DNA of 64,000 nucleotides, from positions 248,001-312,000 of the forward strand of contig JAODMT010000024.1 of the NCBI GenBank assembly GCA_025464975.1. The letters run 5' to 3'. Under the pieces are notes generated by a model. That model did not search any database, was not told the origin of the DNA, and saw nothing but the letters and a program-made list of their open reading frames with translations. Made by a program: the position numbers and the translations under genes. The DNA comes from Microbacteriaceae bacterium. Its GTDB lineage: Bacteria; Actinomycetota; Actinomycetes; Actinomycetales; Microbacteriaceae. Shown here piece after piece: positions 30,638 through 43,241 of the stretch. The first letter of the stretch is position 1; every line of letters begins with the position of its first letter.

Positions 30638-31480
30638 ATGGCGTTCATCACGGTTGGCACCGAAAACTCGACAGACATCGAGCTGTACTACGAAGACCAA
30701 GGGGCCGGCCAGCCCATCGTCCTCATCCACGGCTATCCGATGGATGCACACTCCTGGGAGCGACAGACCAAGGTCCTCCTGGCGGCAGGATACCGGGTCA
30801 TCGCCTACGACCGCCGAGGATTCGGCCAGTCGAGCAAGACCGCTGACGGCTACGACTACGACACCCTGGCTGCCGATCTCAATGCGTTGCTTACTGAGCT
30901 CGACCTCACGGATGTGGTGCTCGCCGGATTCTCGATGGGCAGCGGGGAGGTGGCCAGATACGTCGGGACCTACGGCACAAAGCGACTTGCTAAAGTCGCG
31001 TTCCTCGCGTCGCTCGGTCCGTTCCTGCTCCAGACCGACGACAACCCGTCCGGGGTGCCCCAGGCCGTCTTCGACGGAATCATTGAAGCCGCGCAGGCAG
31101 ACCGGTTCGCGTGGTTCCGCAACTTCTACAAGGGCTTCTACAACGTCGATGAGAACCTTGGATCGCGGATCAGCGAGGATGCCGTCGAGGCCAGTTGGGT
31201 CGTCGCCACTCGCAGCGCGCCCGTGGCGGCGTATGCCGTCGTGCCGTCCTGGCTGACCGACTTCCGCGGCGATGTGCAGAAGGTGAAGGCGTCGGGGATA
31301 CCGGCGCTGATCGTGCATGGCACGGCGGACAACATCGTGCCCATCGATTCCACGGCGCGGCCGTTTCACGAGCTGCTTCCCGAGGCGACCTACGTCGAGA
31401 TCGAGGGCGGTTCACACGGCCTGCTGTGGACGCATGCCGACGAGGTCAATGCCGCGCTCCTGGCCTTCCTCGCGCAATAG
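30638..31480 (+). CDS. alpha/beta hydrolase, cofactor-free haloperoxidase/perhydrolase type
   Basis: A 280-residue hydrolase with the triad Ser99 (GFSMGSGE), Asp231 (HGTADNIVP) and His260 (GGSHG), and the oxyanion block [10 protein letters not shown]. The GFSMGxGE and [10 protein letters not shown] motifs place it with non-haem chloroperoxidases and arylesterases, which in vivo are mainly esterases or lactonases and make peracids only in the presence of peroxide. It is cytoplasmic with no signal. AAGGAGA gives a clear ribosome site. It converges on the racemase gene with a terminator between. Confidence 0.89.
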
Positions 31481-31528
31481 CCGAAAGACAGAATGCTCCA
31501 GTGGAGTAGCTAATATCCCGGCAAAGAT

Positions 31529-31567
31529 AAGGGCGGCGAAGTCAGACATTCTGGCTCCGCCGCCCTT
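31529..31567. terminator. bidirectional terminator between hydrolase and racemase
   Basis: AAGGGCGGCG pairs with CGCCGCCCTT (10 bp), with a further GTCAGA/TCTGGC inner stem. T-rich tracts follow on both strands (TTTCT and TTATCTTT). Confidence 0.85.
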
Positions 31568-31580
31568 TCTCCAGTCAGGG

Positions 31581-32261
31581 TCACTGAATCTGCGCGGTTA
31601 CCGCCGACTTCAGCTTGAGCGCTGCGGCCTGTGGGCCCGAGATCACCGGAAGTCCGAGCGCCTCCTCCATGGCTGCGGCCGCGGGAGCAAGAGAGTACTG
31701 GCCGAGCAGCACCGCGTCGACGGAGCCGACGAAGGGCTTTGCCGCCTCGATCAGTGCTTCGGTCAGCGCGCTGACGTCGCCGGCTTTCGTGGCAACGAAC
31801 GCCGCGGGAACCGTTTCTCCGACCACCTTGGTTGCCGAACCATTCGCCTGCAGGAATTCGGCGAATCGCGCCACACAGTCGTTGAGTGCCGACTCGAAGG
31901 ATGCGACGAGGAGCACCGTGCCGTAGTCGCCGGCGAGGGCGGTTTCGAACGCGGCCTCGTCGGGGGCCAGGATGGGAACGTCCGCCTGGGTCGCCAGGGC
32001 CACCGAACCGTACATCGAACAGGTGAGCAGAACACCGGCCGCGCCCTCGGCGAGGGCGAGATCGATCAGGCGCGTCATCCGCTCGGCGAGGTGCGGAGTG
32101 ACGCCACCCTGCGCGTCTGCGTCCGGGAGGAGCTTGTCGTCGAGGATGTTCCACACTTCGGCTCCGGGGAACACCGTGTTCATTCCCGCGACGGCCGGGG
32201 CGATGGCCGCCGGCGTGGCGTGGATGAGCGCAATGCGCGGGGTGTCTGTCGCGAGCGTCAT
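31581..32261 (-). CDS. Asp/Glu/hydantoin racemase family protein
   Basis: A 226-residue protein of the cofactor-independent Asp/Glu racemase superfamily. Two catalytic Cys are expected in the family; Cys80 in LLTCSMYGS fits the first, while the second half has GQYSLAPA where many members have a Cys motif. Racemase activity is therefore doubtful, and an isomerase or lyase role of the superfamily is possible. Its ATG overlaps the stop of the OtnI-like isomerase upstream, so both belong to one operon of the sugar-acid island. The substrate is unknown. Confidence 0.75.
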   Translation of the reverse strand: MTLATDTPRIALIHATPAAIAPAVAGMNTVFPGAEVWNILDDKLLPDADAQGGVTPHLAERMTRLIDLALAEGAAGVLLTCSMYGSVALATQADVPILAPDEAAFETALAGDYGTVLLVASFESALNDCVARFAEFLQANGSATKVVGETVPAAFVATKAGDVSALTEALIEAAKPFVGSVDAVLLGQYSLAPAAAAMEEALGLPVISGPQAAALKLKSAVTAQIQ

Positions 32262-41253: not shown

Positions 41254-41266
41254 ACCCCAAACCGGA

Positions 41267-41323
41267 GGAAGCTTCGCCGACACAGTGAAGCTTCCCCGAC
41301 ACATTGAATTGAACAGATTCAAT
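41267..41323 (+). other. two hairpins between the transporter and otnK
   Basis: GGAAGCTTC/GAAGCTTCC (41267-41295, 9 bp, 11-base loop) and ATTGAAT/ATTCAAT (41303-41323, 7 bp, 7-base loop) fill the 84-bp gap. No T run follows, so they may stabilise or process the mRNA, or attenuate it partly. Confidence 0.6.
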
Positions 41324-41337
41324 CGAGAGGACCAACC

Positions 41338-42591
41338 ATGCCCTTATGGGGTTGCATAGCCGACGATTTCACCGGAGCGACCGACCTGGCGACGAACTTT
41401 GTCTCCCAGGGGTTCCGCACAACTGTGATCTTCGGTGCTCCTGACCCCGCCCGATCGGACACGCCTGACGCGTCTGACGTGGATGTGGTCGTGGTTGCCC
41501 TCAAGACACGCACTGCTCCGGTCGAGCAGGCCGTCGACGAGAGCCTGCGGTCGCTGCGGTACCTCGAGTCGATCGGCGCGGAACGCATTTACGTGAAGTA
41601 CTGCTCGACCTTCGACTCGACGCCAGCGGGCAACATCGGTCCGGTTGTCGACGCCGTGATGGCCGAACTCGGCGAGGCCATCACGGTGGTCGTTCCGTCC
41701 TTCCCGCAGGCGGCGCGAACGGTATACCAGGGGCACCTCTTTGTCGGGAGTGACCTGCTCAGCGAGAGCTCAATGCGCAATCATCCGCTCACGCCGATGC
41801 TGGACTCGAGTGTGCCGCGGTTGCTCTCGGCGCAGACGGTCAACAAGGTGGGGTTGGTTCCGCTCGACGTCGTTCGGGCGGGGGCTGTTGCCCTGCGCGA
41901 TCGCGTCGCGCAGGGCGAAGAGCGCACGCTTTTTGTCGTCGACGCGATTACCGAGCTCGACCTCGCCACGATCGCCGAGGCGACGAGCGGCCTACGCGTT
42001 GTCACCGGCGGCTCGGGGCTCGCGATGGGGTATCTGCACGACGCGGGATCCGCCGACGCTAGGGACATCCCGACCGCCGGCGGATACCGCGCGACCCTGT
42101 GCGGCAGCGCGTCGCAGCAAACACGCGCCCAGGTGGCCCACGCGAAACTGACCGTGCCGTGGCGCAAGCTCGACCTGCCCGCCCTGCGTGCTGGCTTCGA
42201 TGCGGAGGTCGCCTCGTTGCTCGATTGGGCGACCGGCGTATATGAGGAGCAGGCGGATGCGACGCCACTGTTCTACTCCGTCGACTCGCTCGCCGATACG
42301 CAGAACGTACCGGCCGGCACCAGCGAGCTTGTGGAACAGGCGCTTGCCGCGATCGCGGCCGGACTCGTGCGGCTCGGTGCTCGTCGCCTCATCGTCGCGG
42401 GCGGCGAGACGTCGGGTCGTGTGGTCTCCGAACTCGGCATCGAACGCATCACGATCGGCACCGCCATTGCTCCTGGTGTCGCGTGGAGTGCCGGCAGCAC
42501 CGCCGACGGTGTGGCCGTGAACGTCGCCCTCAAGTCGGGCAACTTCGGAGCGGAAGACATGTTCACCTCGGCTTGGTCACTTCTCGCATGA
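41338..42591 (+). CDS. otnK: 3-oxo-tetronate 4-kinase (DUF1537 family)
   Basis: A 417-residue kinase of the four-carbon acid sugar kinase family. GCIADDFTGATDLATNFV at the N-terminus binds the substrate, and the C-terminal nucleotide-binding domain has RLIVAGGETSGRV and KSGNFG. OtnK phosphorylates 3-oxo-tetronate at C4 with ATP. The adjacent OtnC-type aldolase (ATGA overlap) and the OtnI-like gene in the island support this specific member over DtnK or threonate kinases. It acts in the cytoplasm. GAGAGGA lies upstream of the ATG. Confidence 0.9.
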   Translation: MPLWGCIADDFTGATDLATNFVSQGFRTTVIFGAPDPARSDTPDASDVDVVVVALKTRTAPVEQAVDESLRSLRYLESIGAERIYVKYCSTFDSTPAGNIGPVVDAVMAELGEAITVVVPSFPQAARTVYQGHLFVGSDLLSESSMRNHPLTPMLDSSVPRLLSAQTVNKVGLVPLDVVRAGAVALRDRVAQGEERTLFVVDAITELDLATIAEATSGLRVVTGGSGLAMGYLHDAGSADARDIPTAGGYRATLCGSASQQTRAQVAHAKLTVPWRKLDLPALRAGFDAEVASLLDWATGVYEEQADATPLFYSVDSLADTQNVPAGTSELVEQALAAIAAGLVRLGARRLIVAGGETSGRVVSELGIERITIGTAIAPGVAWSAGSTADGVAVNVALKSGNFGAEDMFTSAWSLLA

Positions 42592-43241
42592 CCGGCGTCG
42601 ACGAACTCGTCGCGGCGGGACGCCGGCTCGCTGCGCTCGGACTCAGCCCCGGCTCATCCGGCAATCTCAGCGTTCGCGTCGGCGATGCCATCGTGATGTC
42701 CCCGACCGGCAGCGATCTCGCCGCCCTCGACGCGGAACAGCTGTCGGTGCTCGACTTCGACGGCAACCTTGTCAGCGGACCAAAGGCGTCGAAGGAGTAC
42801 CCCTTCCACCGCGCCATGTATCGCCGCAGCGAGGAGACGCAAGCGATTGTGCACTTGCATTCGACCTACGCTGTCGGGGTGTCGTGCCTCGAACCGTGGA
42901 GCACGATGAGCGCAATCCCGCCGATCACGCCCTACTTCGTAATGCGCGTTGGCCAGACTCCGCTCATTCCCTATGCCGCCCCGGGTGATTCAGCGCAGGC
43001 GGCAGTCATCGAGAACCTTGGCTTCCCGTTCGGCGCGGTTCTCCTGCAAAACCACGGTTCGATCACGTCGGGCTCGACAATGGCCGCCGCTGTGGAAGCC
43101 GCGATTGAACTGGAAGAAGCGTGCAAGCTGCTCCTGCTGCTCGGCGAGAAGCCCGCACGCTACCTGACCGGCGGGGAGGCGCTCGCGCTCGCCTCCACAT
43201 ACTCATCCTCGTGGACGGCCCCAGGCGACGGTGCTCGCTAG
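42588..43241 (+). CDS. otnC: 3-oxo-tetronate 4-phosphate decarboxylase (class II aldolase family)
   Basis: A 217-residue class II aldolase/adducin-fold enzyme. GLSPGSSGNLSVRVGD near residue 18, SPTGSDLAAL, the zinc His pair in IVHLHSTYAVGVS, and LLQNHGSI with the third His are present. OtnC decarboxylates 3-oxo-tetronate 4-phosphate to dihydroxyacetone phosphate, which joins glycolysis. Coupled to otnK by ATGA, it completes the tetronate branch. L-fuculose-phosphate aldolase is an alternative family member, but the kinase partner argues for OtnC. Confidence 0.9.
   Translation: MTGVDELVAAGRRLAALGLSPGSSGNLSVRVGDAIVMSPTGSDLAALDAEQLSVLDFDGNLVSGPKASKEYPFHRAMYRRSEETQAIVHLHSTYAVGVSCLEPWSTMSAIPPITPYFVMRVGQTPLIPYAAPGDSAQAAVIENLGFPFGAVLLQNHGSITSGSTMAAAVEAAIELEEACKLLLLLGEKPARYLTGGEALALASTYSSSWTAPGDGAR

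Follow-up and report, generated by a model that had tools for sequence, protein, structure and literature searches.

What sugar acid a bacterium might degrade when the OtnI/OtnK/OtnC trunk of tetronate catabolism is embedded among many further enzymes is the question raised by a gene cluster in the stretch of DNA presented above, from a soil bacterium of the Microbacteriaceae. This stretch of 64 kb (64,000 nt), referred to here as the window, belongs to a genome of 3.22 Mb, and all coordinates are positions in the window. A preliminary description had named, between 30638 and 43241, an OtnI-like isomerase, a racemase-fold protein (here Race), a GntR regulator, an Ldh2-type dehydrogenase, an LhgO-like flavoenzyme, a ModA-like protein, an FAH hydrolase, a metallo-beta-lactamase-fold (MBL) hydrolase, a uronate-dehydrogenase-like short-chain dehydrogenase/reductase (SDR), an MHS importer, OtnK and OtnC, and profile searches of the window proteins recovered all 12. 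The right end of that span stands, but the left end had to be moved: the gene at 30638-31480 (+), which had been taken for OtnI, encodes an unrelated alpha/beta hydrolase that does not adjoin the block in Arthrobacter sp. Soil736, and the island is 31581-43241. That the island is more than a chance assembly is well supported by the gene order kept in Soil736 and by a palindrome shared among three divergent intergenic regions. The reading favoured here, to which a probability of roughly 0.4 is assigned, is that the island is one inducible catabolic unit that would carry a C5 uronate through a pentarate, an oxo-pentarate and 3-oxo-tetronate to OtnK and OtnC and so to dihydroxyacetone phosphate (DHAP); the substrate and the middle steps of this route are what we infer.

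The gene order is Race (-), OtnI (-), GntR (+), Ldh2 (-), LhgO (-), ModA-like (+), FAH (+), MBL (-), SDR (-), MHS (+), OtnK (+) and OtnC (+), where the starts of OtnI (33046), ModA-like (36387), FAH (37185), SDR (39677), MHS (39877) and OtnC (42588) were revised from homologues and by eye. All 12 genes are found in Soil736 (L003 among the fetched loci, which are numbered with an L) with order and strands kept and with 80-92% identity, and the same 12 lie across two contigs (L019/L077 and L004/L076) of the Microbacteriaceae metagenome-assembled genome (MAG) BP_160; shorter contigs of BP_157 (L001) and BP_162 (L002) carry the right part of the block. To the left of Race, Soil736 has aldo/keto reductases and no alpha/beta hydrolase, and the ChrB gene to the right of OtnC has no match in Soil736 and is present only in BP_157. 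Since its relatives place the window genome in the Microbacteriaceae, the occurrence of the block in an Arthrobacter as well points to transfer.

The palindrome ATASTATAGT, with the core TACTATAGTA, is common to the regions between OtnI and GntR (33124-33228, with ATAGTATAGC at 33124 and ATAATATAGT at 33219), between LhgO and the ModA-like gene (36238-36274, with two palindromes ATACTATAGT) and between SDR and MHS (39744-39778). A scan allowing at most one mismatch, in which one palindrome is counted on both strands, gave seven matches in the window, corresponding to six distinct sites, all seven of them in these three regions; the mean expected by chance is 0.32, and none of 100 shuffled windows reached seven. 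The whole genome holds ten matches, of which seven are those of the island and three lie at two places on another contig, C5 (104257 and 105449-105451), near genes that by eye are phosphatase-like and methyltransferase-like; these places were taken as chance rather than as members of the regulon. The sites recur in L003, in L077 and in seven related clusters (L064, L066, L072, L074, L099, L150 and L155). The GntR/FCD regulator (33244-33915, +; PF00392, 44.6 against 27 bits; PF07729, 96.4 against 24.3 bits) adjoins the operator and is the likely binder of the palindrome because it is the only regulator in the island. With 12 genes kept together and one palindrome standing before each divergent gene group, it is very likely that a single GntR regulon, with this predicted operator, covers the whole island. 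The preliminary description had supposed that the extra enzymes work together with the trunk, and the shared operator and the conservation of the block in another bacterial family agree with it. Two results weigh against the regulon: a reversed control pattern gave seven matches genome-wide, so that single sites prove little and it is their clustering that constitutes the argument, and the same scan found no operator in L078, L152, L153, L156 and L157.

The trunk consists of an OtnI-like 2-oxo-tetronate isomerase (32258-33046, -; NF043033, 297.6 bits, cut-off 325), the DUF1537 3-oxo-tetronate kinase OtnK (41338-42591, +; NF043035, 438.8 bits, cut-off 350) and OtnC (42588-43241, +; NF043034, 224.0 bits, cut-off 250), and the earlier reading of the locus as this trunk with extra enzymes is supported, OtnI and OtnC having the right family as best match at scores below its cut-off. 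The D-apiose pathway, with its 3-oxo-isoapionate kinase OiaK, resembles the island in using a DUF1537 kinase on an oxo sugar acid; the OtnK of the island scores 110.3 bits against the OiaK cut-off of 700. The trunk to DHAP is shared with the L-threonate/D-erythronate pathway (LtnD or DenD, OtnI, OtnK, OtnC; Zhang 2016, as given in excerpts of PMC12540250 and PMC10580937), but the island is without the LtnD, DenD and DeoR of that pathway and adds Race, ModA-like, SDR, MBL, Ldh2, LhgO, FAH and GntR. The erythronate cluster of Brucella, as set out in an excerpt of PMC10580937, comprises ltnD, otnK, otnI, a DeoR-type regulator, denD, otnC and mfs. A DUF1537 kinase is also shared with the three-step L-threonate bypass (2-OtnK, 2-OtnC; Guo 2024, via an excerpt of PMC12540250), but the bypass has no OtnI and an OtnC of the F_bP_aldolase type, whereas the island has OtnI and an Aldolase_II OtnC. 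Profile searches found no LtnD, DenD or DeoR among the 12 genes of the island, and the SDR reaches 34.6 bits with the DenD model, for which the cut-off is 325. In gene content the island is not a plain tetronate cluster, and the suggestion that it serves a sugar acid not yet described fits these results.

The window OtnK and that of L153 each lie separately among the OtnKs of clusters without Race and ModA-like genes and apart from the main group of OtnKs linked to ModA-like genes (forks 100/99 for the window and 100/98 for L153; the label needs six changes on the tree, and the starred branches force three). This placement suggests that the kinase was exchanged and probably keeps the usual substrate, 3-oxo-tetronate.

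To place the island among its relatives, 75 OtnK loci less three short copies (L136, L148 and L149, of L153, L155 and L157) were compared, which leaves 72 distinct loci, 17 with and 55 without a ModA-like gene. The loci were fetched with OtnK, ModA-like or Race queries, so that the joint occurrence of these three genes is in part a product of the fetching, and the loci are not independent of one another; SDR, MBL, dehydrogenases and hydrolases played no part in the fetching. Race is present in all 17 loci with a ModA-like gene (in L003 just beyond the 9-kb limit). The SDR occurs in 7/17 of these loci against 0/55 of the others (Fisher 1.3e-5), MBL in 6/17 against 1/55 (4.8e-4), a D-2-hydroxyacid dehydrogenase in 9/17 against 0/55 (2.9e-7) and a nucleoside hydrolase in 4/17 against 0/55 (0.0023, or 0.0098 if L064 and L066 are taken as one), while an isocitrate/isopropylmalate-dehydrogenase-type enzyme shows the opposite distribution, 0/17 against 13/55 (0.02). 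As judged from gene content, there is thus a wider module of OtnK, single-cysteine Race and a putatively cytosolic ModA-like protein, often with a Udh-like SDR, an MBL lactonase and one exchangeable C2-oxidiser, the last being a D-2-hydroxyacid dehydrogenase in nine of the 17 loci, an FMN hydroxy-acid oxidase in three (L052, L053 and L118) and Ldh2 with LhgO in the island. The 17 loci come from five Microbacteriaceae genomes (L064, L066, L072, L074, L078), other Actinomycetota (L003, L057, L099, L150, L153, L155, L157) and plasmids of Pseudomonadota (A. vitis L052, Rhizobium Q54 L053, Pantoea L056, Erwinia L118 and the pTi-type L051). The profile is rare: within the order it is present in 12 of 396 genomes, and within the class in 4 of 394.

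Neighbour families were also counted around OtnK loci with and without Race, using a home-made gene caller that missed some genes and after the removal by hand of 28 of 114 and 5 of 104 open reading frames, respectively; one row each was removed from alignments A3 and A4, where coordinates gave stops. Around the 11 loci with Race (86 neighbours), the best 25 of 60 families include GntR/FCD (11), D-2-hydroxyacid dehydrogenase and OtnI-type proteins (six each) and SBP_bac_11, Lactamase_B and SDR (five each). Around the 20 loci without Race, from Microbacteriaceae and related bacteria (99 neighbour proteins), DeoR domains (10) are the commonest after OtnC, followed by MFS (8), DRL_cat (7), CitMHS (4) and GntP (3); LtnD-type domains are not among the best 25 of 68 families, and these loci are therefore not textbook clusters either. 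The MHS-family carboxylate/H+ importer of the island (39877-41253, +) has a metabolite/H+ symporter model as its best match (TIGR00883, 386.6 bits, cut-off 443.45), and importers near related clusters are of carboxylate types, namely DctM (L150, L155), tripartite tricarboxylate (L052, L106) and TRAP (L053). In L057 (2259-4103, Rhodococcus) and L051 (9846-17031, pTi-type), the Race/OtnK/ModA core is extended by two genes, one D-glutamate-cyclase-like (PF14336 in L057) and the other for an alpha/beta hydrolase (66% alike).

Race (31581-32261, -; PF01177, Asp_Glu_race, 43.8 against 31 bits) is a member of the Asp/Glu racemase fold with a single catalytic cysteine. An alignment of 44 rows (43 distinct) has the first cysteine in every row and, at the second catalytic site, Gln in 32 and His in 12, so that none of the 44 has the two catalytic cysteines of a two-base Asp/Glu-type racemase. 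A fetched locus with OtnK contains 33 of the 44 rows; the remaining 11 include two from contig ends of the BP_160 MAG and one from L121, where otnC is annotated close by. Some distant members (L123, L124 and L125) are neighbours of 3-hydroxyacyl-CoA-dehydrogenase-type genes, which make 3-oxo acids. Race shares the fold of the arylmalonate decarboxylase (AMDase)/maleate isomerase/hydantoin racemase superfamily and has one cysteine, as AMDase does, but this cysteine is in the first and not the second position and the sequence similarity is distant. According to an excerpt of PMC6563808, AMDase G74C/C188G variants, in which the single cysteine is moved, still decarboxylate with lowered activity; Race has the cysteine arrangement of these variants. 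The missing second cysteine and the activity of these variants together make two-base racemisation by Race unlikely; a one-base reaction on a 3-oxo acid, either decarboxylation or protonation at C2, is the better guess. A structure model (pLDDT 65.1, pTM 0.64, three sequences), for which the top Foldseek match is arylmalonate decarboxylase (4.8e-6) with racemases close behind, does not decide the function.

The ModA-like protein (36387-37097, +; PF13531, SBP_bac_11, 91 bits against 25) matches the mature ModA profile from its first residues, and its homologues start at 36387; judged from these profile and homologue starts, with no signal-peptide program run, it has no export signal of the kind found in periplasmic ModA, and profile searches found no ABC partner gene among the 12 genes of the island. 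It is proposed to be cytosolic and to act as an isomerase or tautomerase. A structure model of it (mean pLDDT 34.9) was discarded, and aconitate isomerase was set aside as a template, the papers checked making no mention of ModA. ModA-like proteins also occur directly 3' of an intradiol dioxygenase gene in chlorophenol-type plasmid clusters with no ABC transporter listed adjacent (L054 8001-8723 and L055 7977-8678; 46% identity), and further paralogues away from Otn genes have, by eye, either an aldehyde-dehydrogenase-like gene or an ABC transporter of the sugar type as neighbour (L151 9624-10349 and L154 9432-10157).

Ldh2 (33902-34996, -; PF02615, 328.5 bits against 38.8) has malate and sulfolactate dehydrogenases as relatives, and LhgO (34993-36180, -) scores 535.4 bits with the L-2-hydroxyglutarate oxidase equivalog NF008726 (cut-off 299), OtnK and LhgO being the proteins that pass curated cut-offs; both oxidiser families act on 2-hydroxy-diacids. 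The FAH-family hydrolase/decarboxylase (37185-37901, +; PF01557, FAA_hydrolase, 183.6 bits against 23.9) is related to fumarylpyruvate hydrolase and the acylpyruvase FAHD1. Locus L152 carries these genes, together with GntR and ModA-like genes, as a cassette without Otn genes (LhgO 75%, FAH 63%, Ldh2 59%, GntR 51% and ModA 46% identity), and since the cassette can stand alone, the island looks like an Otn/Race/SDR/MBL module that has taken up the cassette in place of a D-2-hydroxyacid dehydrogenase. Two C2-oxidisers are present, but the inference of several stereoisomers that the preliminary description drew from several C2-oxidising enzymes is weakened, because related clusters have one C2-oxidiser each and Ldh2 and LhgO belong to the stand-alone cassette.

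Clues to the substrate come from the SDR (38901-39677, -; 3ay3, 2.7e-62; 3rft, 9.6e-61), a proposed NAD-dependent lactone-forming dehydrogenase whose four best solved relatives (3ay3, 6mfh, 3rft and 3rfx) are all of the uronate-dehydrogenase type. In the alignment with 3rft it keeps S111, N112, H113, Y136, K140, S165 and R174 of the A. tumefaciens enzyme Udh, of which Ser/Asn/His, Tyr, Lys and Arg174 are presumed to have catalytic or site roles. An excerpt of Pick 2015 (PMC4476818) gives the C6 carboxyl as the main contact in Udh. Of 13 distinct cluster SDRs, 10 retain R174, and all 13 have Arg at the site of Udh Thr167, where the three aligned solved enzymes have Thr or Phe. The MBL-fold hydrolase (38040-38819, -; PF00753, Lactamase_B, 95.9 bits against 22.7), a proposed sugar-acid lactonase, has a THLHWDH metal motif that is kept in relatives. 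The island thus shares with the oxidative hexuronate route (uronate dehydrogenase, lactonase, aldarate) a Udh-like SDR with catalytic and carboxylate-side residues and a lactonase-type partner, but differs from it in the Arg at the Thr167 site and in having no aldarate dehydratase.

Five relatives have nucleoside hydrolases or ADP-ribosylglycohydrolases that share their operon or operator. A nucleoside hydrolase stands at the end of the OtnK operon in L064, L066 and L074, and in L153 two nucleoside hydrolases lie 5' of MBL in the same direction; L064 and L074 have a further one after an importer, behind an operator site, and L072 has two ADP-ribosylglycohydrolases after an operator site. The motif AEFN, whose Glu we take to contact the 5'-OH, is kept in both housekeeping nucleoside hydrolases of the genome, and its Glu is lost in three of four cluster kinds, two having ASANI or ASFN at the site and a third an Arg-rich stretch. 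The roles of Glu166 and Asn168 are likewise assumed, a literature search having given nothing on them. The loss of this Glu suggests a nucleoside with a changed 5' group, for example a carboxylate.

In the pathway that these observations would allow, the MHS protein would import a carboxylated sugar, the SDR may turn a C5 uronic acid such as riburonate into a lactone by oxidising its aldehyde end, and the MBL enzyme could open the lactone to a pentarate (trihydroxyglutarate). Ldh2 and/or LhgO would then produce 2-oxo-pentarate and OtnI would move the ketone to C3, giving 3-oxo-pentarate, a beta-keto acid on both sides, which Race, the ModA-like protein or FAH could help to decarboxylate to 3-oxo-tetronate, the compound that OtnK would phosphorylate and OtnC convert to DHAP and CO2. 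Overall, C5 would yield DHAP and two CO2, and further enzymes would be unnecessary. A C5 diacid is proposed because oxidation, a ketone shift and a single decarboxylation lead to 3-oxo-tetronate only from a five-carbon diacid; a C6 aldarate was rejected, as one decarboxylation would not give a C4 acid, and the 13 enolase-superfamily matches of the genome, with no GD_AH match, are undecisive on this point. Clusters with an isocitrate/isopropylmalate-dehydrogenase-type enzyme can do without OtnI, which would be possible if a pentarate were oxidised and beta-decarboxylated at C3. In L103, L104, L105, L107, L120 and L122, Race and OtnK accompany such a gene, often with an amidohydrolase, a beta-propeller lactonase or an aconitase, and no OtnI was found nearby; hydroxycitrate was considered as the substrate of these clusters and dropped, there being on paper no route from it to the OtnK substrate.

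A more specific form of this proposal, which is possible but doubtful, is an undescribed route for C5 uronic acids or pentarates, fed by D-riburonate from rhizobial exopolysaccharide or by 5'-carboxylated nucleosides, in which riburonate would pass through ribarolactone, ribarate, 2-oxo- and 3-oxo-pentarate and 3-oxo-tetronate to DHAP, with Race and the cytosolic ModA-like protein as new oxo-acid catalysts. D-Riburonic acid is an end residue of the exopolysaccharide of Mesorhizobium loti R7A, a natural soil source (PMC8227245, excerpt), and an excerpt of PMC11770544 describes a 2-hydroxyglutarate racemase that also epimerises D-arabinarate. A literature search, with subscription papers outside its scope, returned no report that describes Race or a ModA-like protein as a partner of OtnK, and none on how pentarates or riburonate are degraded. 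If the route is correct, it names a way of breaking down pentaric or C5 uronic acids and gives a testable function to two widespread, unassigned families, the single-cysteine Asp/Glu-racemase-fold proteins and the cytosolic ModA-like proteins, which in Actinomycetota and Pseudomonadota would work alongside a known pair of kinase and decarboxylase. The operator offers a direct way of testing the regulon.

Several observations tell against the C5 proposal. OtnI, OtnC and MHS have the right family as best match with scores below the cut-offs; the R174 site is Asp in three of the 13 SDRs (L153, L156 and L157), so that a carboxylate is not needed throughout; the hydrolase L153_IUa, the fourth cluster kind, keeps AEFN; the island has no nucleoside hydrolase, and the two copies in the genome lie elsewhere with no operator match near. 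The carbon number of the substrate is derived from chemistry and context, and the single decarboxylation has a surplus of candidates in Race, ModA-like and FAH. The Asp residues and the intact AEFN would suit an oxidative pentose route, in which nucleoside ribose is converted by SDR and MBL to ribonate and by the C2-oxidiser and OtnI to 3-oxo-pentonate, after which either OtnK and OtnC act on C5, yielding a tetrulose phosphate, or loss of formaldehyde leads to 3-oxo-tetronate; the nucleoside hydrolases of relatives, within the operon in L153 and within it or under the operator in L064, L066 and L074, would suit this route as well. It is nevertheless improbable, given that both the window OtnK and that of L153 group with ordinary OtnKs, that profile searches found no enzyme for formaldehyde or tetrulose phosphate in the island, and that R174 is kept in most of the SDRs.

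The trunk and the two C2-oxidisers would also be expected if several tetronate stereoisomers, and C4 aldoses, entered at 2-oxo-tetronate via different C2-oxidisers, with SDR and MBL making tetronates from aldotetroses and Race and ModA-like acting as epimerases that adjust stereochemistry; the D-2-hydroxyacid dehydrogenase and the S-type oxidases of related clusters would suit different C2 configurations. The absence of LtnD, DenD and DeoR from the island, the uronate-type site of the SDR and the lack in Race of the second base of a two-base racemase make such a scheme somewhat unlikely, and isocitrate-dehydrogenase-type front ends are hard to reconcile with C4 monoacids, while nucleoside hydrolases do not produce C4 sugars. 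It is more improbable again that the island is two unrelated neighbours, a tetronate/uronate module and a 2-hydroxyacid cassette (GntR, Ldh2, LhgO, ModA, FAH), sharing only place and regulator: the cassette is indeed found alone in L152, but in the window the operator stands before both modules, the joined block is kept in Soil736, and the joined island is without the D-2-hydroxyacid dehydrogenase that four of the five other clusters with SDR and MBL share and the fifth has too (L064, L066, L072, L074, L153).

Within the island, the region 37902-38039 between the convergent FAH and MBL genes contains strong hairpins that by eye resemble a two-way terminator. At 26479-28318, an Indigoidine-synthase-A-like gene (pseudouridine-5'-phosphate glycosidase type) and a PfkB kinase gene overlap and are likely a pseudouridine catabolic pair; a part for this PsuG/PsuK pair in the nucleoside story was dropped, PsuG not having been found in the L001, L003 and L019 genomes by a search without a positive control. 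By eye, 23000-26266 encodes a long surface protein that carries Ig-like repeats and is anchored at its C-terminus, and adjoining the island at 43251-49101 are genes for a ChrB-N-terminal protein, an OFeT-type iron permease and an iron/phosphonate-type ABC transporter.

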